IMG/VR virus record: IMGVR_UViG_3300024343_000045
Location: 1-37,644 of that record
DNA length: 37,644 nucleotides
Direction: 5' to 3' (one strand)
Origin: a virus
The notes beneath the pieces were generated by a model. The model was given only the letters and a program-made list of their open reading frames with translations. It was not told the DNA's origin and did not search any database. Numbering within the stretch: the first letter of the stretch is position 1; the number at the start of each line of letters is the position of its first letter. This document shows positions 1,336 to 28,236 of this stretch, piece by piece. The translations under genes were made by a program, and so were the position numbers.

Positions 1336-4300
1336 CTAGAGGGGGAATAGCGAGGCGCGGATAGCCTCTGGGGATGTGCCGCGATGTTGGGCGCGTTGAA
1401 TGATTGCTCGGTTCTGGCGAGCCGTGCGTACTTCAGGGAACTCTTGCATCATCTCGGTTTCAGCCTTGTTGCGGAACTTACGGATGACTTTGTTGATCTC
1501 GCTAACTCGCGGTGAACCTTCGTCACCAAAGGACTCCGGCGACATCCGCTGGTAGTTCCGCGAGTTGATTAGGCGGGTCAGGGTCTGCTTCAGACTGCGA
1601 CCTTTGATGCGGACTTCGCCGTGAAGCTCCATCCAACGGTCATACGCGGTTTGACCCGAAGAGTCCGCTAGAGCCTTCAGGTCTAAGTTGTACCGCGTGG
1701 GACTCGGGGGTCCGAAGGCGTGACCAAGGTTCTTGACCTCAAGGTTGATGGGGTCACTGGTCGTGGTCGAGTGCATGATCGGCAGGAACCAATCGGTCGC
1801 CCTACCGCCCCACGCTTGGTGCTTCTCAATCGCCTCGCCCATGAAGTTACGGACGGGCATCAGGCTGTCGCTCAAGCCAGGGATCTGCGACTTGATCTGA
1901 TCCATGACCCCGTGGATCTCGCGGAAACTCTGGTCATCTCCAAGGGTCGATGTGAAAGACCGCGTGAAGCCCGACAGAGGCACAATGGAACCGCCAGCCT
2001 TGCGGAGCATCTTTCCGGCGTATCGTTCGGGGTCCTGCATGAGACCCGTTAGATCCATAAGGCCCGTCAAATAGGTCTTTGAGCCTAGGTTTCGCGCCAA
2101 CGCCACGCCAACTTCAAGGCCCAGGTTCTCGCTGGTGTTCTGAAGTTCCTCGGGGGCGTACTGGTTTACTTCAACCATGTCGCCTACAACGCCAAGGATT
2201 GTGGCAAACGGGTCAAACCGGCGGTAACTAAAGTACTCGTCGCCAATCTTGATCGAGTAGGGTTGCCAACCAGCTTGCTCCCACAGTTTGCGCTGCTGGA
2301 TATCCTTAGGTCCACCGCCAGTGATGCCCCCTTCGGCTGCTAAGGCAGTAGCTGTAATCGTGAACCCAAGACCCGCAACGAAACGCCCGTGAGCTTCTGC
2401 GGCTCGCTTTGGGTCACCGGAGGCTAGGTCGGCAATAAAGCGCGAGCGATTGCCCAGTTTATCTGACAGGTCCTTGATCGTCTTGTCAGCAGGTACGCCC
2501 CGCAGTTTACCAGCAAGGATTCGGGCTCCGTTGAGTGCTGGGTCTACCGTGCGCTCGCCCGTCCAACTCAGCAGGTTGACCGGGGTTCGGACGAAGGTGA
2601 TAAAGGGCCGCATGACCGGATGATTGTTTACCAGTTTCTGCGTAGAGCGGCCCAGTTCTCGGAACCCAGCCTCACCTTTTTTCAACTCGCGGGTCTGTGT
2701 GACATCTCGGGAAATCTCCAGTGCCCTTGCAGCCAACGCGCTGCGACCTTGGACCTCGCGGTCCTTGAGAGCATTTGTGACAAACTCGTCTTTTGCGGAA
2801 CCGCTAAGTCCCCGCTGCTTGGCAGCAGCCCTAAGGTTCGGAAGAGTCAAAGCGAGGTCATCAACCAGCATCCCGTCCATCTGGCTCTCAATCCACTTAG
2901 CCAACTCCGGGCCACTCTTGTTTTGTTTGCGGCCCTGCTTGGCTAGGTCAGCCATGACAACGGCGCGGTAGTTCAGAGTCTTGACCGCAGAGTCTGTAGC
3001 CGACAAAGCGCGTCCCGACAGCCTAACAATAGTCCCTAGCCAGTTTGTGGCCGTTCCGGCAGCAGACTCGTCGGTGAACCCTACGTTAGCCGCCGTGATG
3101 GCGCGTTGCTGCTGCCCCGGAAGGTCCATTGTTCCTGACCCAGCCGAAGCGTCGAGTAGTAGACGGTCTTCGACCCAAGACTTCTTAGCGACACGGGCAG
3201 CATCTCCCCAGCCAAAGAACAACTTAGCAAACTCTGACGTAACGTAAGAGAACTCTGACATAAAGTCGGAAGCTGCCTCTGAGTCGCCCCTGAGTGAAGC
3301 ACCCATGGCCCCCTCAAGAGGACGGTAGAACGAAGTCAGCACGGGTCCAACGAAGTTAGTCATAAGGGTGACCGGAGAACTCAGGATTGCTGAGATGAAC
3401 CCTTCGTTATACATAGCCAACCACTTGTTGTGCTGGAACTTCTTTAGGGCCTTCATGCCGCCGCCTACGCCGCCAGCTTGGATAGCTTCGGAAAGACCGC
3501 GAGCCTTGCCTACCAGTTTCTCCCGGCCACCGAGAGCTTCTATGGTTGACTCTAGGGCCGACTTCTGCTGGGCCGACAGGTTGTCAATAAAGTTCTTCTC
3601 GGTATCCGATGGACCTTTACCGGAACCTTTGCCGGGGCCTTTACCGGGACCTTTATCGGGACCAGCACCTTCGCCTTTGCCGGGACCTTTGCCGGGACCA
3701 GCACCTTCGCCTTTGCCGGGACCAGCACCTTCGCCCATACCGGGACCAGCGCCTTCGCCCATACCGGGACCAGCGCCTTCGCCCATACCGGGACCAGCAC
3801 CTTCGCCTTTGCCGGGACCAGCACCTTCGCCCATACCGGGACCAGCGCCTTCGCCCATACCGGAACGGCGTGTGGGCTGCGCTTGTCCTGGGTCAATCTC
3901 GCCAAGATACTTGCGGAGTCTTAGAGACTGACTCTGCGCTGCCCCAAGACCCTTGACGGCACCAAAGACCGCCTGAGTGTCCTCTATTGCTAGGGCAAGT
4001 CGCACTAGGTTCTCGGAAGTGTCGGCCTCCTCGAAGGCTTTGAGAGCCGGAAGCAAGTGAGCCTCATTGAGACTCTTGAGCTTGAAATGCCACTTGAAGG
4101 CTTCTCGGGCTACATCATCCTGTGAACGAGTAGTACGTCGGATCTGCTTGAGGAGGTCTTCCACAGACTCCCCGCTGTACTCAGAGAGACCTTCGAGTGC
4201 CTCGTTGGCCGCTTCTATATCAGACCTGCGGCCAATGTGTGGAGCGATCTCTTCCTCAAAGACATCATCTAGGGTTCTGAGTATAGGAGCTACGTCTGCG

Positions 4301-6180
4301 CCCATGCCCCGGAGGTTGTAGTGGGGGAAGTCCGAAACTGCGAACTTACCGTCTTCCCACTTCTGCCGCTGAACTTTGATCTCTTCGGTGGACTGGATGA
4401 CCTTGGGGGTAGGGGTGGGAACCTCCGCGTCATCCATCATTGCTTGTCCCGGCCTTAGGTCTTGCGCTGTAGGGTCTGGGGCTTTCCTCCCAAACTTACG
4501 GGCCTGAAGTTCAGCAGGACTGAGTCCTTGGTTAGTCCCCAAACCCCCAAGATCCGTGGTATTCCCCGGCTTTGCCTCAGGTCTAGCTAGGAAGATAGCC
4601 TCAACTTCGGCGGGTGTCCGTCCTTTGGTGTCAATGCCTAAAGCAATAGTGTGCAACCGATCTAACTCTTCCTGAGCAGACTTCTGGAGCTTAGGGTCAA
4701 GACCTGATAGGGACTCTCGGATCTTTGTGATAAAGCCTTGCCACGCCTCTTGGACAGCCTTGAGTAGACCCATAGCCTCTGCGCGACCCTCTCCCCGTTT
4801 GATGAGGAAGGTTGCAAAGGATTGAGCAGCAAACTCCGAGGGGCTATTAGCAATATGCTTGAGTTGATTAGGGCCAGTAATACCCATCTCATCTCTGACA
4901 AACTTCTTAACAGCCTCTACGCCTCCTTCATCAACCAAGCGTCTATAGACATCCCTGATCGCATTGGAGGAATCCTCTATGTGCCCTAACTCATGAGCGA
5001 AGGTGTGGAGAGCCGTAAGCCCCTTGGACTCATGGATATCCTTTGCGATAGTGACCACATTGGCGATGTCGGAAGAAAAGAGATTGTCATGGTCAATCTC
5101 GAAGGTGTGGGAGCCCAGGATATCCCCAGACACCCCAAATACCTCCTTCTTGCCTACTACATTCACCTGAAGCTTGTCCGCAAAGCGGAAGTCAGATCCT
5201 CGCGTTGCTAGGTCTAGGATCTGAACCTGACCGGGAGTAATGAGTCCCGCGTCGTAGATCTCACGGATTCCATCCACGAACTTCTGGGCTCCCGGAGTGT
5301 CCGGTAGGTCCGGGAACGTCCGAGCTAGAATGTCATCAAAGGGTAGGTCATCGGGAGATACATCGAAAGGCCCTACGTCCCCCGCCTCCCCATCTACTAG
5401 GGCCTTAGGCTCCTCTAAGTCAGCCGACAGTTTTACCTCAGCCTCGGCATCCACAGCCTTATTGTAGTCAACGGCTGCTTCTTCCTTGGTAGACCCTTTA
5501 GTCATGGCATCGTCAAATGCCTTGCGCCCCTTGAAGATGGCTCGGACACCCAGCAGCAGCGAGTCAAACACTACGCCAGCACCCAGCCCCTCAACTGCTG
5601 CCTTGAGCCGCCCGACAACCTCAGGGTCATCAGGGTCAGACTTCAGGAACTCAGTGATCGGGTCGCTCAGACCGCCGTACTGCTGGAGCATGTCCGACAG
5701 TCGGGCCTCATGGCCCTGCATGACGGCAAAGTCAGCAACGAAACCAGCGGTAGCCTCTTGACCACGGCGAGCAAGCCAACCCTTGGCTCCCTTACCTTTA
5801 GCCGCCTTTTCGAGACCGCCAGCCAACTTGACCGCTTTTCCAGATTTACCTGCGGTTCCTGCAATCTTGGCTCCGCGACCTACCCAGCCAGCTACCGGAA
5901 TAAACGCGGTGCCGAACTCGGTGATGCCTTCAAGCAGACCGCCAACGACAGTCTCCGAAGTGCCAAGCCCAAGGTTCTCGGGGACATCGTAGTCCATGCC
6001 GAACACGTTGCCTAACTCTGCGATCCCCTCGACAGCACCAGCTACACCGCGAAACGGGGCGGCTACAACGTCTTTAGCGAAATCAAAGAACCCAAAGTCA
6101 TCCTCGCGTTCATCGAGAGGCTTTAGGTGGTCTGGGGCCGTGTCGTATAGTGGGTCAGACCACGGGTCGTATGGGGGCAT
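1336..6180 (-). CDS. Giant internal virion/ejection protein (T7 gp16 position)
   Basis: At 1614 residues this is the largest gene, and it sits where T7 has gene 16, the ejected core protein that helps form a channel through the cell envelope. T7 gp16 (1318 aa) begins with a lytic transglycosylase domain; I see none here. Instead residues 396-400 read HELGH within LHTFAHELGHIED, a zinc-peptidase HExxH motif, with a possible third ligand at Glu449 (NSPSEFAAQ). Residues about 771-855 are a Gly-rich tandem repeat of GMGEGAGP/GKGEGAGP. The rest is long and mostly helical, as expected of a core protein. The ATG overlaps the preceding stop (TAATG), which favours coupled translation. The role is inferred from position, size and context; peptidase activity is only suggested by the motif. 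Confidence 0.8.
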   Translation of the reverse strand: MPPYDPWSDPLYDTAPDHLKPLDEREDDFGFFDFAKDVVAAPFRGVAGAVEGIAELGNVFGMDYDVPENLGLGTSETVVGGLLEGITEFGTAFIPVAGWVGRGAKIAGTAGKSGKAVKLAGGLEKAAKGKGAKGWLARRGQEATAGFVADFAVMQGHEARLSDMLQQYGGLSDPITEFLKSDPDDPEVVGRLKAAVEGLGAGVVFDSLLLGVRAIFKGRKAFDDAMTKGSTKEEAAVDYNKAVDAEAEVKLSADLEEPKALVDGEAGDVGPFDVSPDDLPFDDILARTFPDLPDTPGAQKFVDGIREIYDAGLITPGQVQILDLATRGSDFRFADKLQVNVVGKKEVFGVSGDILGSHTFEIDHDNLFSSDIANVVTIAKDIHESKGLTALHTFAHELGHIEDSSNAIRDVYRRLVDEGGVEAVKKFVRDEMGITGPNQLKHIANSPSEFAAQSFATFLIKRGEGRAEAMGLLKAVQEAWQGFITKIRESLSGLDPKLQKSAQEELDRLHTIALGIDTKGRTPAEVEAIFLARPEAKPGNTTDLGGLGTNQGLSPAELQARKFGRKAPDPTAQDLRPGQAMMDDAEVPTPTPKVIQSTEEIKVQRQKWEDGKFAVSDFPHYNLRGMGADVAPILRTLDDVFEEEIAPHIGRRSDIEAANEALEGLSEYSGESVEDLLKQIRRTTRSQDDVAREAFKWHFKLKSLNEAHLLPALKAFEEADTSENLVRLALAIEDTQAVFGAVKGLGAAQSQSLRLRKYLGEIDPGQAQPTRRSGMGEGAGPGMGEGAGPGKGEGAGPGMGEGAGPGMGEGAGPGMGEGAGPGKGEGAGPGKGPGKGEGAGPDKGPGKGPGKGSGKGPSDTEKNFIDNLSAQQKSALESTIEALGGREKLVGKARGLSEAIQAGGVGGGMKALKKFQHNKWLAMYNEGFISAILSSPVTLMTNFVGPVLTSFYRPLEGAMGASLRGDSEAASDFMSEFSYVTSEFAKLFFGWGDAARVAKKSWVEDRLLLDASAGSGTMDLPGQQQRAITAANVGFTDESAAGTATNWLGTIVRLSGRALSATDSAVKTLNYRAVVMADLAKQGRKQNKSGPELAKWIESQMDGMLVDDLALTLPNLRAAAKQRGLSGSAKDEFVTNALKDREVQGRSALAARALEISRDVTQTRELKKGEAGFRELGRSTQKLVNNHPVMRPFITFVRTPVNLLSWTGERTVDPALNGARILAGKLRGVPADKTIKDLSDKLGNRSRFIADLASGDPKRAAEAHGRFVAGLGFTITATALAAEGGITGGGPKDIQQRKLWEQAGWQPYSIKIGDEYFSYRRFDPFATILGVVGDMVEVNQYAPEELQNTSENLGLEVGVALARNLGSKTYLTGLMDLTGLMQDPERYAGKMLRKAGGSIVPLSGFTRSFTSTLGDDQSFREIHGVMDQIKSQIPGLSDSLMPVRNFMGEAIEKHQAWGGRATDWFLPIMHSTTTSDPINLEVKNLGHAFGPPSPTRYNLDLKALADSSGQTAYDRWMELHGEVRIKGRSLKQTLTRLINSRNYQRMSPESFGDEGSPRVSEINKVIRKFRNKAETEMMQEFPEVRTARQNRAIIQRAQHRGTSPEAIRASLFPL
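3610..3868 (-). repeat. 24-bp tandem repeat coding a Gly-rich octapeptide
   Basis: Within the giant ejection protein gene, 24-bp units encode eight copies of GMGEGAGP or GKGEGAGP. They are followed by tetrapeptides of the GKGP type (DKGP, GKGP, GKGS, GKGP). Units differ mainly at the Met/Lys codon and by silent changes. The segment separates the HExxH-containing half from the C-terminal half and looks like a flexible linker. Long open frames on other strands here (Pro-rich on the plus strand) are by-products of the repeat. Confidence 0.95.
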
Positions 6181-8876
6181 TACTGTTTACCTTTGGAGGT
6201 GTGGTGGAGAGCATGCTGCTGCTTGGACACAATGGTAGCCATTAGCAGCGTTTTGCCTGACTCAAGTGTGTAGGTCTGTGGGAGCCCAAGGTTCTTTACA
6301 ATCTGGCCCCATCCGGTATTCGCAAGGTCTTCATCTGTGGGGACATCGCCTTTTGCTTCGATTAGCTCTAGGATTTCTGTGTCCAGACCCGCGTGTTCGC
6401 CAGATTTGAACCAGATGGGGATAACGGCTGTGTTACCTGCTACGCCGATATTGATAGGCTCTTTGGCATTCCGCAGGTCTTCTGAGGGGACTCCTTGTAG
6501 ACCGTACAGAGTGTTCAGCAGCTTCTTGGCTTCATCGCGGTCTACTGTAGTCCCGTCGATAGTGATGGATTCTGGAGATACGTTTGTAATCGCAGGAGTA
6601 GGACCGTCTCCCCGCCATCGCGTTACCGGAGAATACTTATTGTTTCCAACATGATAAAACTCGCCTGTTTTTTCTCGGCTCATACCCACAGATTCCAGAG
6701 CTTCATCTCGGGTAGACACGCGGCGGTCAATAAACGCATCCAGGAGCGAAATAGTGCTTGCTGTAAATCTTTCAAAGTCTGCGGACTGTCTTCCGGCAGG
6801 GCTGCTCAGAGGGTTCTTGAGCCTCTCTTTGCTGTCATCAAACAGGTCGCCTAAGTCAAGCCTTCCAGCCTGCACTCCAGCAAACGGGAGACTCCCAGTC
6901 TCTACGTCAACCTCGGGGAACTTAGGGCGAGACTGTTTAGTGGAGGTTTGAGCCCCATACTGAAGTTCCAAAGCGCGTGTCGCCTCGTTAGCGGCATCGG
7001 CTACTTTAGTTTTCATGGCTTCAAATAAACTACCGGCGTTATTTCTCAAGTGTAGATCCACAGCCGCCCTAATCTGCTCGGGGTTAGTAATCCCTTCAGC
7101 GATCTTCTCAAGCCTTACTAAGTCGGCTTCATCGCGAAGCTCCGTTTCAAACTGAGCTGTCAGATCAAGCTGTATAGTCGGGCTACCCTGGACAACCTCG
7201 GGGAAACTAGAACTGAAGGCTCTGTTCAAGTTCCCTACGGTGACGGAGAGTTTGCTAAAGATAGAATCAAGTTGGATGTCCGTCCGCTTTGCAGCCAACC
7301 CTAACCCATTAGCTTCGGCTCGAAAGTTCTCCAGAGCCTCCCCGCCCTCGCTGTATCGGGCAACGACAGCAGATTGAGCGTCTGCGTCATCTCCTGCTGC
7401 GGCCATCTCTTGGGTAAACGCTGTTGTAAAGCGGTCAGTCAACGGCCCTGCGACCTGTTGATCTTCTTCGGACAGCGCGCCCTTGGAGAACCCAAAGAGA
7501 CTCTTGGCCACATCTTGAACTACCTCACCCACGCGAATACGCACTAAGGCATCAGAAGTACTAGAGTTTTTGCTGCTGGTCTCCTCCAACCTCCTCAACA
7601 GAGGTACGGCATCATCCCATCCAACATCACCGCTATTGACTGCCGCAATAACATCGTCTTGAGATGCCGCGCCCGTCCATACCGCAATACGAAGTTCCTT
7701 CAGTTGCTGTGGGTCAGACTCATCAACGCGCTTCATAATGAACTCTTCGCCCGCCAGCAGTTCACTCTGGATCTGCTCCTCGGTAAGCCCCATTGACAGT
7801 AGACGCGGCTTTAGTACCGTGTCGCGCCACTCAATAACCTGATCTTCAGTTGCCTCGGGGTTTTCTATTTTGAACTTAGAAGCTAGGTCGGTTACCAGTT
7901 CAGTCACATCGCCCTTGCTTTCAAAATCTTGCTCCCGAACCAACTTGCGGACATCGGAATACGCAGCCGCCAGTTTTTCTGCGTCCTTGGTTCCAGGGCG
8001 AAACAAGCCCTTCCCGCCATCTCCAAACTCATCGTCTAGCCGATCTAGAAGCTCCAAAGCACGTTCTTCGCCGTGAATAGGGTCTTCTTTGACCATTTCC
8101 ATCGAGGCACGGATAAACGCATCTTGCTTCAGGCTGCGTATTTCAGACACGCTCCAACCACTCATAGCTCCCGCCTCTAACTCTACACCTTCCCAAACTT
8201 GGGCCTCATCTTCCTTAGTGAGACCAGAGCCAACAAGGACAGCCGCCTCGTAAGCCGCTTGGCTGTAGTTAGAGCCCTCACTGTCACGCAGGGCTTTCCT
8301 ACGGGACTCATGGGCTTCGCCGTCAATCTTTTCGAGAAGAGGCCCTAGGATGGACTCTGCGCCTTGGCGAGCGTAGTGCCCCTCAAACTTGTCGCGCCAC
8401 CTAGTACCCAACTCCGAAACCATCTGCTGGATATCTGGGGTCTTAGTGGGGTCCAGCATCTCGCCCTTCATGGCCTCGTAATCAGCCACGATGTCGGGGA
8501 CCATCTCTTTGGCAATCCGGCGGTTAGCATGGAACTGTACAGCAAGTTGGTAAACAGGACGATGACCTCGCGGACCCAGTTGCTTCCACTCTTCCTTGTC
8601 CCATGTGGACATGTTCTTTAGCTGCGCATCGCTCAAATCTTGAGCCGTGAGTTGCGCTGCTTCTTCGTCGTGTTCCCTCGCGCCTTTTTCCTGCCACGCC
8701 GCAAAGTCCCTGATTGTCGGACTGAGAGCCGCAAGTGCCTGAGCCGCCTCTAGGGCGGGGTTCGTCACCATTTCTTCCGTCTTTGGTGCGTTAGTCCGAT
8801 AGTAGGTGTCTACAGGTTGGGCAGCGGGTGTAACCTGGATGCCGGGAAGGTCCAGCCGTACGTCTTGTCTAGCCAC
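6180..8876 (-). CDS. Internal virion protein (T7 gp15-like)
   Basis: This 898-residue protein lies between a gp14-like gene and the gp16-like gene, the position of T7 gene 15, whose product forms part of the internal core and the DNA-ejection conduit. It is soluble, acidic and predicted to be mostly helical, with no signal peptide or membrane segment. The frame extends to a TTG at 8885, but I prefer GTG 8876. It overlaps the gp14 stop as TAGTG and has GGAG nine bases upstream, the same arrangement as at the terminase gene in this genome. The product is longer than T7 gp15 (747 aa). The assignment rests on gene order and size rather than motifs. Confidence 0.75.
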   Translation of the reverse strand: MARQDVRLDLPGIQVTPAAQPVDTYYRTNAPKTEEMVTNPALEAAQALAALSPTIRDFAAWQEKGAREHDEEAAQLTAQDLSDAQLKNMSTWDKEEWKQLGPRGHRPVYQLAVQFHANRRIAKEMVPDIVADYEAMKGEMLDPTKTPDIQQMVSELGTRWRDKFEGHYARQGAESILGPLLEKIDGEAHESRRKALRDSEGSNYSQAAYEAAVLVGSGLTKEDEAQVWEGVELEAGAMSGWSVSEIRSLKQDAFIRASMEMVKEDPIHGEERALELLDRLDDEFGDGGKGLFRPGTKDAEKLAAAYSDVRKLVREQDFESKGDVTELVTDLASKFKIENPEATEDQVIEWRDTVLKPRLLSMGLTEEQIQSELLAGEEFIMKRVDESDPQQLKELRIAVWTGAASQDDVIAAVNSGDVGWDDAVPLLRRLEETSSKNSSTSDALVRIRVGEVVQDVAKSLFGFSKGALSEEDQQVAGPLTDRFTTAFTQEMAAAGDDADAQSAVVARYSEGGEALENFRAEANGLGLAAKRTDIQLDSIFSKLSVTVGNLNRAFSSSFPEVVQGSPTIQLDLTAQFETELRDEADLVRLEKIAEGITNPEQIRAAVDLHLRNNAGSLFEAMKTKVADAANEATRALELQYGAQTSTKQSRPKFPEVDVETGSLPFAGVQAGRLDLGDLFDDSKERLKNPLSSPAGRQSADFERFTASTISLLDAFIDRRVSTRDEALESVGMSREKTGEFYHVGNNKYSPVTRWRGDGPTPAITNVSPESITIDGTTVDRDEAKKLLNTLYGLQGVPSEDLRNAKEPINIGVAGNTAVIPIWFKSGEHAGLDTEILELIEAKGDVPTDEDLANTGWGQIVKNLGLPQTYTLESGKTLLMATIVSKQQHALHHTSKGKQ

Positions 8877-9442
8877 TAGGTCCAACTCCAGTCAGTCTTG
8901 CCAGTGTTAGCGTTTTGCACCCCAAACGTCTGGATGCCCTGCATCATACCTTGGCCGAAAGCCATCGGAATCATCAACGGGTTTGGCATAGCTACGGGTT
9001 CAGGTATTGTGGACAGGATGCGGCCCTGCTGTTGGGAGCGAACTGCTTCCATTTGATCCATCATGGCCGACTCACGGAACTGCTGCGAGCGCATCTGTCC
9101 GTAACTGTATTCTGCTTCTGACCGCTCAAAGTCGCGCAGCAGGGCATCAACAGAGTTACCAGCGACCCCGCCTTCACCTGCCGCTGCTCGGCCTGACCCC
9201 ATAGCCTGACGGGCCTGACGCGAGGCTTTCATAATGTCCATAGCGCGGGCCTCTCTCTCTTGGGACATGCGTTGCTGCATCCCCTTGTACTGACTAAACG
9301 CAGCATCGTTAGCGATCTTGGTGTTCTGCGCGTGGATCTTGTTTTGGTACTCAGCGGTCGCTTCGGCTTGCTCCTTTTGACCGATGTACTGAAGACCTGC
9401 TTGAGCCACCGACATGGCGACCATTGCGGCTACGTTGCACAT
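8876..9442 (-). CDS. Internal virion protein (T7 gp14-like)
   Basis: I choose ATG 9442, which gives 188 residues beginning MCNVAAMVAMSVAQAG. T7 gp14 also begins with Met-Cys and a short hydrophobic stretch, and it is about 196 aa. A longer frame to 9508 would overlap the upstream gene more. From this start the overlap is 13 nt, with GGAG about 11 bases upstream. After the hydrophobic N-terminus comes a helical, Gln/Ala/Arg-rich body (YIGQKEQAEATAEYQNKIHAQN) typical of gp14, the first core protein ejected, which is associated with the outer membrane pore. Family assignment comes from length, N-terminus and position. Confidence 0.8.
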   Translation of the reverse strand: MCNVAAMVAMSVAQAGLQYIGQKEQAEATAEYQNKIHAQNTKIANDAAFSQYKGMQQRMSQEREARAMDIMKASRQARQAMGSGRAAAGEGGVAGNSVDALLRDFERSEAEYSYGQMRSQQFRESAMMDQMEAVRSQQQGRILSTIPEPVAMPNPLMIPMAFGQGMMQGIQTFGVQNANTGKTDWSWT

Positions 9443-9912
9443 ATTAGGGCGAACTCCAGAAAGGGTGGTTGGCGGCGAATGATTGAAACGCCCAGCCAGC
9501 GGAGCCACTTGATGTGAAGCTCGTTGTTGGCGTGGACAAAGTTGGTGAGTAAGTCGTATCCCTCAGAGACCTCCCCAAGCCACTTGCGGGACTCGCGGAG
9601 GAACTGAAACTTGATGCTCTCGATGTCAGGGGTGCCCATCATCCACAGGGCTCCTACAGAGAGCCCCGGTAAGGCTATAGGAGAGACTCCAAAGATAGCG
9701 ATGGGTTTCCCATCCAGCGTGACGGTGAACGCCTTAGAGGAGGACAGGAGGCAGTCAGTGAGTCCGTCACGCGCATTCGTGCCCGCCGCCTTGATCTCCA
9801 AAAGGTCAGCAGGACGCAGACGGTCCTCCAAAGATATAACATCCTGGTAGCAAGAGCGCCGGACTTCGGCTAACCCATGCGAGTGCTGCGGCGGTCGTAA
9901 CTTGCTTCCCAT
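9430..9912 (-). CDS. T7 gp13-like internal protein (DUF2833, GNAT-like fold)
   Basis: This 160-aa protein has the acyltransferase-like pattern of the gp13/DUF2833 family: a central strand pair around FTVTLDGKPIAIFGV, then GALWMMGTPDI, FLRESRKWL, and a C-terminal NELHIKWLRWLGV. In T7 the product is needed for assembly of the internal core but is not abundant in mature particles. The ATG lies 43 nt inside the end of the tail tubular B gene, with only a weak ribosome site (GAG). Its last codons overlap the gp14-like start. Enzymatic activity is not known for this family in phages. Confidence 0.8.
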   Translation of the reverse strand: MGSKLRPPQHSHGLAEVRRSCYQDVISLEDRLRPADLLEIKAAGTNARDGLTDCLLSSSKAFTVTLDGKPIAIFGVSPIALPGLSVGALWMMGTPDIESIKFQFLRESRKWLGEVSEGYDLLTNFVHANNELHIKWLRWLGVSIIRRQPPFLEFALICAT

Positions 9913-19511: not shown

Positions 19512-21219
19512 TACGGGCCTCGCCAGCTAAGGGGATTCGGAAATCAAAAGCCTCACCTGCCTGTTCAATCGACAGGCAAGCGTTTTTCGCTACTTGCGAA
19601 CTAGTCACCGAACGGCACTCGGTCTGCCACTCGTCATGGACATGGGCGACAATGGCCCAGTCCTCGTTCTTCACGAAGCCATGCTTGGCTTGGAGGTTGC
19701 TGAAGATGCAGGTTGCGGTTTTCATCGCGACCGCTCCGGCAGATTGTAGAAGAAGGTTCAGGGCAGAGTGGGGACTCCGGCAATACAACGTGCGTCCGTC
19801 TAGTCCCGTCAGGTGGCCCTGAACCTTAGCTTTTTGTTTGACCATCTCGGTCAGTTTTTTGAGGGCGGGGGTCCGATCAAGGAAACGCTTGCGGAGAGCG
19901 CGTCCTTCCTTAAGTCCACCGTCAATGATCTCGCCCAGCTTTGCGTCACCCGCCCCGTAGATCAGGGCATAGATCAAAGTCTTGGCTTGGGAGCGGCTGG
20001 TCAACCCAGCAGCCTCCATGTTCATCGTATGAATGTCACCGCTAAGGATCTGGTCAGCGTACTTCCCGTCATCCCAGGTATACATATAGTGAGCCAGACA
20101 GCGGAGTTCCAAACCTGAGGCATCGCAGCCCACTAGGTCGAACCCGTCAGGGACCGTGAACAACTCGCGGAAAGTCTCCTCTGCCGGGATCTGAGCAAGG
20201 TTGGGAGCCCTGTGTGTCATGCGTCCGCTGACTGCGCCGTTGCTGTTGACAGAGCCGTGGATGCGGTTGTCATTTGCGACCTCCCCCAGCAACCCTCGGT
20301 TACCTTCGGCCAACTGACCGATGCGCTTTGTCACCAGCAGGTAGTCCTTGAGAACCCTTGCTTCGGGGATCGTCCCCTCTAGGCTAACTAAGACTGTCTC
20401 TGAAACCTTCGGTTTACCGTCAGGCGTAAACTCGGTCGGTTTCCAGCCCCGCTCCATGAACCGCTCGGCAATCTGCTTGCGGCTACCAGGGTTGAACTCC
20501 TCAACCTTAGGCTTCAGTTTGCGGCCCGTCTTCTCCGAGATACGCTCGGTTACCTTGGTCGGGAAGATTGACTTCATCTCCTCGCGGATACGGTCCCGCT
20601 GAGAGCAGAGCCGCGCATACAGCCGCTCGCCCTTGCGGCGGTCAAACAGGAAACCGTAGTGTTCCATGTCGTGCATCAGGGTAAAGATCCGATGCTCCAA
20701 GTTGACAGAGCCTTCGTTCAAGTCCTTCTTCTTGCACTCCTGCCAGAACCTGTGGTTGACCTCGACATCGCGCTGGCAGTAGTCCTCAAGCTCGCGGCTC
20801 CACCGCTCAAACATGGACTTGTCCTCGACAACGTGAGACCACTTCTTGAAGCCCAAGCGGTCACCCCAAGCACCGAGGGAGTGGGAACCTGACTTCTTCT
20901 CAAGGTCGCCCCACTTCTTCTGGTGATCTAGTTCGCGGATGTTCGGCCAGCCAAGGCGCGAGTAGACCAAGGTGTCCTTGATCTCGGCAGAGGTAGTCCA
21001 GTCGGGGTACAACTTGCGGATAGCCCACAGGTCGTACCCAATGATGTTGTGGCCGATAAGCACATCAGCCTCAGCCAGCGCCTCTAAGCCTAGAGTGAAG
21101 TTACCTTCTTCGGCGTGGTTGTAACGCCGGATCTCTCCGTTCTCGTCCATCGTCACAATGCAATGGATAACGGTTGGGTCGAGACCGTCAGTCTCAATGT
21201 CAAAAACTAGATCGCTCAC
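19483..21219 (-). CDS. DNA polymerase, family A (T7 gp5-like)
   Basis: The 578-aa enzyme starts MSDLVFDIETDGLDPTVIHC, the ExoI motif of the 3'-5' proofreading domain. NHRFWQECKK and related segments follow. The polymerase domain has GCDASGLELRCLAHYM (motif A), RSQAKTLIYALIYGAGDAKLGEII (finger O-helix, motif B) and VAHVHDEWQTEC (motif C). The C-terminus EARIGKNWWQTH parallels the end of T7 gp5. It is shorter than T7 gp5 (704 aa). The start is GTG at 21219, overlapping the methyltransferase stop as GTGA, which suggests coupled translation. The endonuclease gene begins within its last 29 nt. Confidence 0.97.
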   Translation of the reverse strand: MSDLVFDIETDGLDPTVIHCIVTMDENGEIRRYNHAEEGNFTLGLEALAEADVLIGHNIIGYDLWAIRKLYPDWTTSAEIKDTLVYSRLGWPNIRELDHQKKWGDLEKKSGSHSLGAWGDRLGFKKWSHVVEDKSMFERWSRELEDYCQRDVEVNHRFWQECKKKDLNEGSVNLEHRIFTLMHDMEHYGFLFDRRKGERLYARLCSQRDRIREEMKSIFPTKVTERISEKTGRKLKPKVEEFNPGSRKQIAERFMERGWKPTEFTPDGKPKVSETVLVSLEGTIPEARVLKDYLLVTKRIGQLAEGNRGLLGEVANDNRIHGSVNSNGAVSGRMTHRAPNLAQIPAEETFRELFTVPDGFDLVGCDASGLELRCLAHYMYTWDDGKYADQILSGDIHTMNMEAAGLTSRSQAKTLIYALIYGAGDAKLGEIIDGGLKEGRALRKRFLDRTPALKKLTEMVKQKAKVQGHLTGLDGRTLYCRSPHSALNLLLQSAGAVAMKTATCIFSNLQAKHGFVKNEDWAIVAHVHDEWQTECRSVTSSQVAKNACLSIEQAGEAFDFRIPLAGEARIGKNWWQTH

Positions 21220-21956
21220 TTTGCTTGCTCCTGCTTTAGTATTACTCGGCCTATCAACTCAGGTATTTGGGGGACAACGGCATTGCCTAGCTGTCTAAGT
21301 CTGTCCATCCGGCGGGGAACCCCATTAGCCACTCGACCCACGCTGGGTTTAGACTGCCAGAAGTCTGATAGTTTTCCCTCGCGTGGACCTCGCGACCCAA
21401 CAGACCGTTCGCTGGGACATTCCTGCAAGCCTTCGCGGAGCCGTCCTTCCAGTCTCGGCTGGTCGGGGTAGGCCAAGAGCCAGATCCTGTCCCTTTGGTG
21501 AGGCGCACCAACGGCACTAGCGGGTATGCAATGCCATTCTGCGACATACCCGATCTTGCTGATATCTTGAAGGACCAGGGCAAGCCCTTTAGATCGAAGG
21601 GCTGATACATTTTCAACAATCGCCCACGCTGGCCGTACATCTCGGATGAGTCGAAACATCTCTGACCAGAGCCCAGATCTGTCCCCGACGATTCCGGCCT
21701 GTCTTCCGGCAAAGCTAATGTCTTGGCAGGGGAATCCTCCACAGATGACTTCGGGTAGGGGAACTCTGTCTGTTTGTAGTTGCTCAAGCGTTAGCTCCTT
21801 GATGTCTCCATAGATCGGCACATCCGGCCAATGCTTGCCCAAAACCTTCTGGCACTTTTCATCTTTCTCGCAAAAGGCCACCGTCCGAAAACCCCCGGTG
21901 CGCTCTAACCCTAGCGAAAAGCCACCAATGCCTGAGAACAAATCGAGCAGCCCCAT
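21216..21956 (-). CDS. DNA (cytosine-5) methyltransferase
   Basis: The 246-aa enzyme starts GLLDLFSGIGGFSLGLERTGGF (AdoMet-binding motif I) and continues CEKD, GDI, then ICGGFPCQDISFAG with the catalytic Cys of motif IV, WAIVENV (motif VI) and HQRDRIWLLA (motif VIII). A very short target-recognition region comes before RQLGNAVVPQIPE (motif X). No partner restriction gene is visible, so it is an orphan, probably protecting phage DNA from host restriction or adjusting its modification. ATG 21956 overlaps the helicase stop (TGATG). It is inserted between helicase and polymerase, genes that normally work together. Confidence 0.95.
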   Translation of the reverse strand: MGLLDLFSGIGGFSLGLERTGGFRTVAFCEKDEKCQKVLGKHWPDVPIYGDIKELTLEQLQTDRVPLPEVICGGFPCQDISFAGRQAGIVGDRSGLWSEMFRLIRDVRPAWAIVENVSALRSKGLALVLQDISKIGYVAEWHCIPASAVGAPHQRDRIWLLAYPDQPRLEGRLREGLQECPSERSVGSRGPREGKLSDFWQSKPSVGRVANGVPRRMDRLRQLGNAVVPQIPELIGRVILKQEQAK

Positions 21957-23581
21957 CAAAATGGCACCTCCTCAAGTGGCGTAGACTCAAACATGGGCTC
22001 AACTGCGTTCAACTTTCCGGTTGCTTCGTCGTAGCGAAGGCAGTCAGCTTCTCCGATCTGACCAGAAAAACGGTTCTTGCCTACCCGCAGTCTCCGCAGG
22101 TTCGGCTCGTTGTCGCGGTCGGGAGCCTCCAAGAAGACCACCGAGTTTGCGTAGTGGGCGATGGAGCCAGAGCCGCGCAGGTCGGAGATCGAGATTGCCC
22201 CCGACTCTTCGTGCGCTTGGCCCTGAGACTTCCGCAGGTGGGACACTAAGATGATCCCGATGCCCGTGGACTCGACCAAGGCCCGAAGCTGGGCCATCGT
22301 TGAGTCGATGAACTGACGCTCCCCACCTTCGGGGGCGTTGGAGATCAGCATGTGCAAGTGGTCGAGGATCACGAACCGACAGCCTTCACTGACCCGCATG
22401 TACTTGATGCGCGACAGCAAGCTGGCGATCTTGCTGGACGGGTCGTGCTTCAAGATTACCAGTCGGTCCTTGAAGTGCGTGTCGATCTCGTCGGCCAACT
22501 GTTCCGGCGACAGGCCACAGCGGTCAAGATGTAGCGGCTTGTCTAGGGCTTGACCAAGAAGACCGAGGGCCGTCTGGATGGCGCACTCTTCAAGGCCGAT
22601 GTAGCCAACCTTAGCGTTCTCACTGACCATGTGGTGCGCGAGTCCCCGGCAGAGTTGACTCTTGCCCATACCAGTACCGCTGGAGATCACGGTGATCTCG
22701 CCTTCGCGGCAACCCCTTAGCAGTTCCTGGATCTTCGGGTAGGGCCAAGTCACTGAGGGAACCTCGACCTCGTTGGTCAGCAAGTCTCTCAGGTCATCTG
22801 TGGTCAAGATGCCGTCCGGTCGGTAGGTCTTAGCCTCCCACCAAGCGTTCGTTAGTTCTTCGTAGAGCCCTTTTTCCACCGCCTCGCCAACGTCCTTACA
22901 GCCGTTCGGGGGCAGCGCAATCTTCGCCTTACCAGGAGTAAGCAGAGAGGCGCATTCAATAGCGGCGGCTCTGCCGGGAGCGTCCGCGTCAAAGAAGAAG
23001 ATGACGGACTCATAGGTCTCCAGCATCTCGATGTTCTTTGCCACTACCTTCTTTGCGGACTGAGCCCCGTTTGGCAGAGAGACACATGGCCGCTTCCCGC
23101 CTAGAGTTTGATCCAAAGCTAGGGTGTCGATCTCGCCTTCACAGATAGTCAGGACGCGCCCACGGTCGTTGCGGAATCGGTGAGCTTGCCAAAGCCCCAT
23201 TGCCTGAGCGTTGCCTTTGATCTCAAACTTCTTGTCGGGGTAGCGCACCTTCTGGGCAACAAGTACCCCCGTGTCATCGCAGTAGTCTGCAACTTGAACA
23301 GGCTGGCCCTTGCTCTCCCCCACGCCGTACCCTGCTCTCGCGCAAGTGGCTCGGCTGATACGGCGCACTCCCAGTTCGGTCGGGCTGTGTTGTATAAAAT
23401 CACCAGACATCCAGTTTACCTCCTTGACCGCTTCGTGTCCGTCAGGCCAGAAGGTCGCGCCACACACAAAGCAGAACTTGTGGTGGACCTCTTGCGTGTC
23501 TGTGTCACCGTAGACGGCTCGCCCGTCTGAACTTCCGCATGAACATTCCTCATGCCTTAGAAACGAGTTGGTATCGTGCAT
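21956..23581 (-). CDS. Primase-helicase (T7 gp4-like)
   Basis: The 541-aa bifunctional replication protein has an N-terminal zinc-binding region (Cys pairs CSCG and CFVCG around residues 14-40) and TOPRIM primase motifs EGEIDTLAL and FFFDADAPGRA. Its RecA-type hexameric helicase has Walker A SSGTGMGKSQL, Walker B RFVILDHLHML and the arginine/H4 segment near SISDLRGSGSIAHYANSVVFLE. The C-terminus is acidic and ends in Phe (STPLEEVPF), like T7 gp4, whose tail docks on the polymerase. GGAAGG lies four bases before ATG 23581. It overlaps the preceding HTH gene by 32 nt. Confidence 0.97.
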   Translation of the reverse strand: MHDTNSFLRHEECSCGSSDGRAVYGDTDTQEVHHKFCFVCGATFWPDGHEAVKEVNWMSGDFIQHSPTELGVRRISRATCARAGYGVGESKGQPVQVADYCDDTGVLVAQKVRYPDKKFEIKGNAQAMGLWQAHRFRNDRGRVLTICEGEIDTLALDQTLGGKRPCVSLPNGAQSAKKVVAKNIEMLETYESVIFFFDADAPGRAAAIECASLLTPGKAKIALPPNGCKDVGEAVEKGLYEELTNAWWEAKTYRPDGILTTDDLRDLLTNEVEVPSVTWPYPKIQELLRGCREGEITVISSGTGMGKSQLCRGLAHHMVSENAKVGYIGLEECAIQTALGLLGQALDKPLHLDRCGLSPEQLADEIDTHFKDRLVILKHDPSSKIASLLSRIKYMRVSEGCRFVILDHLHMLISNAPEGGERQFIDSTMAQLRALVESTGIGIILVSHLRKSQGQAHEESGAISISDLRGSGSIAHYANSVVFLEAPDRDNEPNLRRLRVGKNRFSGQIGEADCLRYDEATGKLNAVEPMFESTPLEEVPF

Positions 23582-27204: not shown

Positions 27205-28236
27205 CTAGCCCAGCACCTCGGCAACATTCTCCAGGTCACGGCCAGCCACCTTGATATAGATGTCGGTCGTGGCCTCATTACGGTGGCCCAGCCAAGTCGA
27301 GATGTGGCTCTTGTGGACGTTGGCTTGGGCTAGTCGTGTGCCCACCCCGTGACGCAGCGAGTGAGGGACAAACTCTTTGTCATCCGCTAGGCCCATGTCG
27401 CCCTTGACCGTGCGCCAGACGCGATTCAGGTGCGTCTGCGAGACATCAGGGAACAGCTTGGCCGTGCGGCGACCTAAGCGAGACTCGATAACCTCTTGGA
27501 CACGCGGGGTCATGGTCAGGGTCCGCTCGTTGCCGCCCTTCATCACTTCAAGCTCGATCTTTGAGCCTACCACTTTGCTTGCGGGGAGACTCAGAAGCTC
27601 GCCCGTCCGCATCCCGGTCCCCGCCAGCACCTCGACAAAATCGGCCAGAGAATGATTGCCACGCTCGCGCATCCGGCGAGCCATCTCTTGGCCCTCCTCT
27701 TTGGTCGCATAGCGCATCCTCCGGTCAGTCCTTGGGTCTTCGGGGATCATGGGGATGTGCGGCAGCGAAGAGATCCAGCCGAGGCGTAAGGCTTGCCGCA
27801 AGATTACCGACAATGTGGTCAGCTTGCGGTTGACCGTCTTGTAACTGCGGCCCTGACTGATGGCTTGCTTGGCTACCACAATGTCATCCGTGGTCAACGC
27901 CACCAGCAGAGTCTCTGGACCTAGCAAGTCCAACCACTCGACCGCGCTGGCCCATTGGTTCTTGATGCCCTTCTCGCTCTTGCAGGTAAGCTCCCAGCGT
28001 TCCCGCAAGGTGTACTCGGCGGCTTCCTTGAGTGTCTTGGGAGTCCTCCGCAAGACTTCCTCGGGCTTGGCAACCTGCCGTCCCGCAAGGATATCGCTGA
28101 GGGCCGCATGGCCCCACTTCTCTGCCTCCTCGTAACTGGGCAGGGTGCGGCGTTGCCTGACAGACTTACCGTCTGGTGCAAGGGCTCGGACGTAAGCCTC
28201 AAAGCCTCGTCCTCTTGAGTTGATTGTCATTCCCAT
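27205..28236 (-). CDS. int: Tyrosine recombinase/integrase
   Basis: The 343-aa protein has an N-terminal SAM-like/AP2-type arm (SRGRGFEAYVRALAPDGKSVRQRRTL), a core-binding domain, and a catalytic domain with Arg210 (GTGMRTGELLSL), His292 and Arg295 (HSLRHGVG), His318 (WLGHRNE) and the nucleophile Tyr327 (TTDIYIKV). It would integrate the phage at a host attachment site. ATG 28236 has GGAGG five bases upstream. The position immediately before the RNA polymerase gene matches other integrase-bearing T7-like phages. I could not identify attP without a host sequence, nor any excisionase or repressor. Confidence 0.95.
   Translation of the reverse strand: MGMTINSRGRGFEAYVRALAPDGKSVRQRRTLPSYEEAEKWGHAALSDILAGRQVAKPEEVLRRTPKTLKEAAEYTLRERWELTCKSEKGIKNQWASAVEWLDLLGPETLLVALTTDDIVVAKQAISQGRSYKTVNRKLTTLSVILRQALRLGWISSLPHIPMIPEDPRTDRRMRYATKEEGQEMARRMRERGNHSLADFVEVLAGTGMRTGELLSLPASKVVGSKIELEVMKGGNERTLTMTPRVQEVIESRLGRRTAKLFPDVSQTHLNRVWRTVKGDMGLADDKEFVPHSLRHGVGTRLAQANVHKSHISTWLGHRNEATTDIYIKVAGRDLENVAEVLG

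Follow-up and report, generated by a model that had tools for sequence, protein, structure and literature searches.

Zincin domains are already known from phage proteins that are injected into the host, namely from polyvalent proteins and from the virion RNA polymerase (vRNAP) of phage N4 (PMC5512222, PMC12633501, PMC8472413). In phage T7, the internal virion protein gp16 has a periplasmic N-terminal part, and its C-terminal part is believed to enter the cytoplasm (PMC8954989). Homologs of gp16 are mosaic in their domain content, and the words peptidase and zinc are absent from the available text of that review. The terms "gp16" and "internal virion" are absent from the main text of PMC5512222, and no paper on zincin modules in T7-like gp16 was found among the open-licence PMC literature.

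The window (the whole stretch of 37.6 kb that was analyzed) carries the gene set of a T7-like podophage. A T7-type RNA polymerase, portal, major head protein, tail tubular proteins, terminase and a gp14-like protein were assigned by Pfam and PHROG. For bases 1-25000, there is no near phage record at the DNA level. The phage may be able to integrate, because an integrase gene (27205-28236, minus strand; phrog_1, E 9.5e-43) adjoins the RNA polymerase gene. A C5 cytosine DNA methylase (PF00145, E 2.9e-41) is encoded at 21216-21959 (minus strand), between the genes for primase-helicase and DNA polymerase.

The protein under study, P0001 (1336..6180, minus strand; 1614 aa), matches the PHROG family phrog_6651 ("internal virion protein") with E 3.4e-55, so that the motif discussed below indeed lies in an ejection protein, as the earlier note had proposed. 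Its gene is placed after those in gp14 and gp15 position. The former codes for a gp14-like internal virion protein (8876..9508, minus strand; Pfam T7_gp14, E 4.8e-24). The latter codes for P0002 (6180..8885, minus strand; 901 aa), which is assigned by position only and gave no significant match to Pfam or PHROG. With tblastn, P0001 has matches in 87 phage records, many of them annotated as internal virion protein D. Roseobacter phages CRP-227 and CRP-114 are among the best matches (28.5% identity). Homologous core and synteny both assign P0001 to the gp16 type.

Compared to five cultured relatives, P0001 matches at its N-terminal region and its C-terminal part only, and most of its middle is without counterpart. 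Slot borders were set with L012 and L156, which are its nearest relatives. The conserved N-terminal ejection domain (residues 8-249; 5434..6159, minus strand) is 60.7% identical to L156, while L012 aligns over residues 95-330 (51%, fading past about residue 245). It contains hydrophobic stretches at residues 78-96 and 192-218 according to hydropathy. The latter precedes a cargo slot (residues about 250-578; 4447..5433, minus strand), for which there is no counterpart at this place in L012 or L156. The middle segment (residues 579-773; 3862..4446, minus strand) shows weak kinship to L156 (26.5%) and to L012 (24%, aligning weakly over residues 564-758). It is followed by a Gly-rich tandem repeat (3611..3863, minus strand), the copy number of which varies between near-identical contigs. 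One of these (L011) has 20 residues fewer in the repeat, and its zincin region is the same as that of the window. The conserved C-terminal ejection core (residues 875-1614; 1339..3558, minus strand) carries the PHROG match and is 43.3% identical to L156 and 47% to L012 (from residue 877). L156 does not align to P0001 between these three regions.

In the slot, L156 carries some 770 residues that include a different HExxH domain, and L012 carries about 140 residues in which HExxH is lacking. Outside its zincin, the L156 insert matches a PHROG profile labeled endolysin (E 1.5e-7), but this profile has 2564 positions and its label is not evidence of a lytic function. By eye, the L012 insert had looked ParB-like, but this was dropped as unsupported, the Pfam and PHROG matches being weak. 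The cleanest case comes from another branch, with L020 and L018, which have flanks with 73% and 86% identity; a stretch of about 300 residues with HELWH in L020 is missing from L018. In the pairs L059/L178, L020/L157, L181/L168, L080/L068 and L061/L024, the change falls in the same protein region. Pairs with 80-90% identity in the C-terminal part have the same HExxH label in 8 of 9 cases and pairs with 40-50% identity in 97 of 122, where pairs in which both proteins are without the motif also count as having the same label. Slot turnover is thus real, yet it is not constant. As judged from the alignments, residues about 250-578 of P0001 are a discrete insert, and the HExxH modules of the slot look like exchangeable cargo and not like a permanent component of the injection apparatus. 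The modules are dispensable and are swapped while the ejection parts are kept, and therefore cargo is more likely than machinery.

The HELGH motif was confirmed on the minus strand at residues 396-400 (4981..4995), where the earlier note had placed it. It provides two candidate His ligands and the candidate catalytic Glu397, and is the sole match of CAYGARNNNNNNCAY within the window. P0001 has 23 His and 114 Glu, and a shuffled copy is expected to contain about 0.023 HExxH motifs. The corresponding DNA pattern was found once, with 2.29 occurrences expected in shuffles, and the idea that the DNA motif is unusual in itself was dropped, its count not being above chance. Around the motif, a zincin-like domain core (residues 326-540; 4561..5205, minus strand) was delimited by the profile score and by alignment A7, which contains P0001 and 18 other slot domains with 13-22% identity to P0001. 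In A7, H396, E397, H400 and E449 are shared by 19 of 19 sequences and no other column is invariant, although the HExxH motif itself helped the aligner. The earlier note had suggested Glu449 (4834..4836, minus strand) as third zinc ligand; this residue is invariant in alignments A2 and A7 and is retained as candidate. The conservation that had been named as a check holds among the inserts but not between orthologous gp16 proteins, being absent from all five cultured relatives and from L012, which follows from the insert nature of the entire domain.

A profile built from the other 18 domains, with P0001 left out, scores P0001 with 6.9 bits over residues 373-504, a value reached by none of 3000 shuffles (maximum 3.5). 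Masking of E449 reduces the score to 3.7 bits. Masking of HExxH leaves no more than background (-3.2 bits, which 260 of 3000 shuffles equal or exceed), and thus the similarity of P0001 beyond motif and Glu is thin. Asp403 (4972..4974, minus strand), three residues past HExxH, together with His358 and His364 in the stretch before HELGH, resembles sequence features of the phage-type clade described by Iyer 2017 (PMC5512222).

To see how far the motif recurs, relatives were collected by their C-terminal core. Alignment A1 of this part confirmed 509 IMG/VR relatives, and the best 80 were kept for a first set. Among 69 gp16-type frames from this set with at least 249 aa upstream, including a near-copy of the window and five cultured phages, 30 have HExxH upstream of the core, a count that is biased, like those below, because loci were kept by similarity to the C-terminus of P0001. 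Shuffles of the same 69 upstream parts have a mean of 0.33 with HExxH (maximum 2). No HExxH occurs in the 84 C-terminal parts of this set. Evidence above chance is thus provided by the relatives, and the zincin motif that had been noticed earlier is supported. When a second set (best 80 of at least 558) is added, HExxH is found upstream in 40 of 99 viral frames (20 of 119 had been dropped as too short upstream). It is found in none of 35 frames from genome contigs (37 loci, one without a frame and one with a frame too short) and in none of the five cultured phages, which also lack a comparable insert. Dereplication at 90% C-terminal identity left 83 full-length proteins (50 viral, 28 from genome contigs, 5 cultured). 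Of the viral ones, which include the window and stem from the best-ranked relatives, 20 have HExxH upstream; of the 28 genome-contig proteins, none has. The absence from genome-contig proteins counts against a universal role. The relatives from bacterial genome contigs (L119-L155) are ejection proteins, many from Sphingobium, Sphingopyxis and Erythrobacter (sphingomonads and kin). Two prophage-type proteins among them have SNase-like matches just below the Pfam cut-off. A bacterial or prophage source of the P0001 zincin was sought with a profile search (A5) of genome contigs; none of 589 stretches was confirmed.

The HExxH domains sort into four groups (G1-G4), the type of P0001 itself and the HEYGH type of L168 and L172. 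In the latter two, the HEYGH context is at residue 464, in the same region but outside G1-G4. Profile comparison joins G3 with G4 (98%) and G1 with G4 (96%), and thus these are sequence groups whose separate origins are unproven. When P0001 was compared to the group profiles without selection by motif, it reached 55% with G1 over 28 columns, 11% with G2 and less than 1% with G3 and G4. A scan for HELGHIxD returned 29 stretches. A profile probability of 92% between P0001 and nine of these was not counted, being circular because the stretches had been selected by motif. Searches for the zincin type of P0001 itself recovered it from the window and a near-identical copy alone, which counts against the reading preferred below, as does the lack of any Pfam or NCBIfam peptidase match in P0001. 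Some relatives carry more than one module. L028 (924-4862) combines, in the insert region of one ejection-type protein, two HExxH motifs with the Pfam domain ART-PolyVal (PF18760; 44.4 bits, cut-off 31.2). L167 (1229-9073) has a 2615-aa frame with a gp16-type C-terminus, HELWH, DUF7178 above its cut-off and a weak methyltransferase match.

Structure prediction gave no clear fold, so that the zincin claim rests on sequence. AlphaFold2 was run twice, with 14 sequences and with 19 better-trimmed sequences. Both models have HExxH and Glu449 in helices and lack beta strands, and their mean pLDDT is low (58.6 and 66.3), the second being better, with blocks around model residues 81-130 at 87-95. Foldseek (PDB, BFVD) and VIA-align returned nothing usable for these models, where a missing match excludes no fold. 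In a search of the PDB with the 19-row profile, Pro-Pro endopeptidase/ATLF-like gluzincins (E 0.1-3.8) and other HExxH enzymes have weak matches, none with E below 0.1, those of the gluzincins running from HExxH to the later Glu. They are not significant, and helical designs rank above them in the same search (E 0.005). The G1 profile finds HExxH enzymes as short matches alone (E about 1), and the G2 profile finds none.

Taking this together, we consider a candidate metal site in P0001 very probable from its sequence, and catalysis by the domain is predicted as likely. We infer zinc binding, peptidase activity, ejection and a host substrate. The preferred reading, to which we assign a probability of about 0.5, is that residues about 250-578 are an exchangeable insert whose zincin-like metallopeptidase would act on the host after ejection. 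By homology to T7 gp16, P0001 would be packaged in the head and leave it with the genome, and its N- and C-terminal parts would form the ejection channel. The zincin would travel along as accessory effector through the T7-type ejectosome and would most likely cleave, at an early stage of infection, a host protein involved in defense, envelope or takeover.

The main rival to a host-protein effector is self-processing, by which the zincin would cut its own carrier, whether ahead of packaging, inside the head or upon entry, freeing or re-folding parts of it. Iyer 2017 put this forward for polyvalent proteins, and P1 DdrB is cut before packaging, but the N4 vRNAP has such a domain and is nevertheless packaged unprocessed (PMC5512222). 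Release would make sense where one chain holds several effector domains, as in L028; in P0001 itself, however, no other effector domain was recognized by Pfam or PHROG, and L018 manages without the module despite its close similarity to L020. We consider self-processing unlikely. Another rival is wall opening, where the zincin would take over from the T7 transglycosylase and cleave peptide cross-bridges. P0001 has no Pfam match to a transglycosylase, as had been stated before, and Pfam recognizes no wall hydrolase in the scanned proteins of the window (which included part of the small ORFs). In T7 gp16, the hydrolase belongs to the periplasmic N-terminal region, and domains of this kind can shift between ejection proteins (PMC8954989). 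The wall step is not generally needed, however, because all five cultured relatives, as well as L018, are without a HExxH module. Wall metallo-endopeptidases are mostly of the M15, M23 or M74 type, unlike HExxH with a distant Glu. We consider wall cleavage improbable. The evidence, with L018 set against L020, points to an accessory module instead of the earlier proposal of a zincin that replaces the transglycosylase.

The zincin fold might also serve binding or structure rather than catalysis, or the motif might have arisen by chance in a helical region. The AlphaFold2 models, which have helices only, favor this, as do six G2 proteins (L030, L032, L037, L040, L041, L166) with EExxH instead of HExxH. 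In these zincin-like domains the metal site appears to be lost or altered, so that such a site can be lost, and the N4 domain is described, in the passages covered, only as bearing a conserved HExxH (PMC12633501). Both variants of this reading are opposed by the invariance of all four ligand and catalytic residues at such low sequence identity, and by an excess of HExxH of about 80-fold over shuffles in the upstream region. We regard a non-catalytic domain or a chance motif as quite improbable.

Beyond P0001, we tentatively suggest that gp16 of T7-like phages from aquatic bacteria may be a dedicated cargo port, into which unrelated effectors are recombined and which delivers them at entry. The site would be located just past the conserved N-terminal domain and would hold several kinds of HExxH domains, an ADP-ribosyltransferase and further modules. 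If this is true, the T7-type DNA ejectosome doubles as a delivery system for swappable enzymes, and environmental phages offer a defined place in which to seek early effectors of anti-defense or host takeover. The L020/L018 pair allows a direct test of the role of the module, because little beyond the cargo differs in that protein.

Among known systems, the accessory zincin is best read as belonging to the polyvalent protein kind (Iyer 2017, PMC5512222). Polyvalent proteins are, like P0001, large, linked to virion genes and predicted to be delivered at infection; the P0001 gene is among the virion late genes, adjoining the gp14-like and tail genes. Their zincin-like MPTase domains have HExxH and a Glu on a later helix, and the phage-type clade has Asp three past HExxH, as P0001 has by sequence. 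ART domains accompany these zincins, as is also the case in L028. With respect to several disparate domains per polypeptide, P0001 has one recognized insert domain besides its ejection parts. It differs from polyvalent proteins in that the carrier is a gp16-type ejection protein of a T7-like phage. The G2-type HExxH domain of L050 and L156 has related domains in Bbp10 of Bordetella phage BPP-1 and similar giant podophage proteins. A direct search finds no kinship to the domain of P0001 itself, so that the likeness is to slot relatives, at the domain level.

The N4 vRNAP is, like P0001, a giant ejected podophage protein with a HExxH domain, named C1 (PMC12633501, PMC5512222). There, however, the carrier is an RNA polymerase from another phage group, and the domain sits at the C-terminus rather than amid ejection domains. 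T7 gp16 is, like P0001, a large internal virion protein encoded after the gp14 and gp15 genes, with a homologous core according to PHROG annotation. P0001 differs from it by the missing N-terminal transglycosylase and by the insert of about 330 aa; at 1614 aa, it exceeds the 609-1337 aa of the gp16 homologs in a reviewed set (PMC8954989). Injected zincins as such are already known, and it is T7-like gp16 as their predicted carrier that appears to be the new part.
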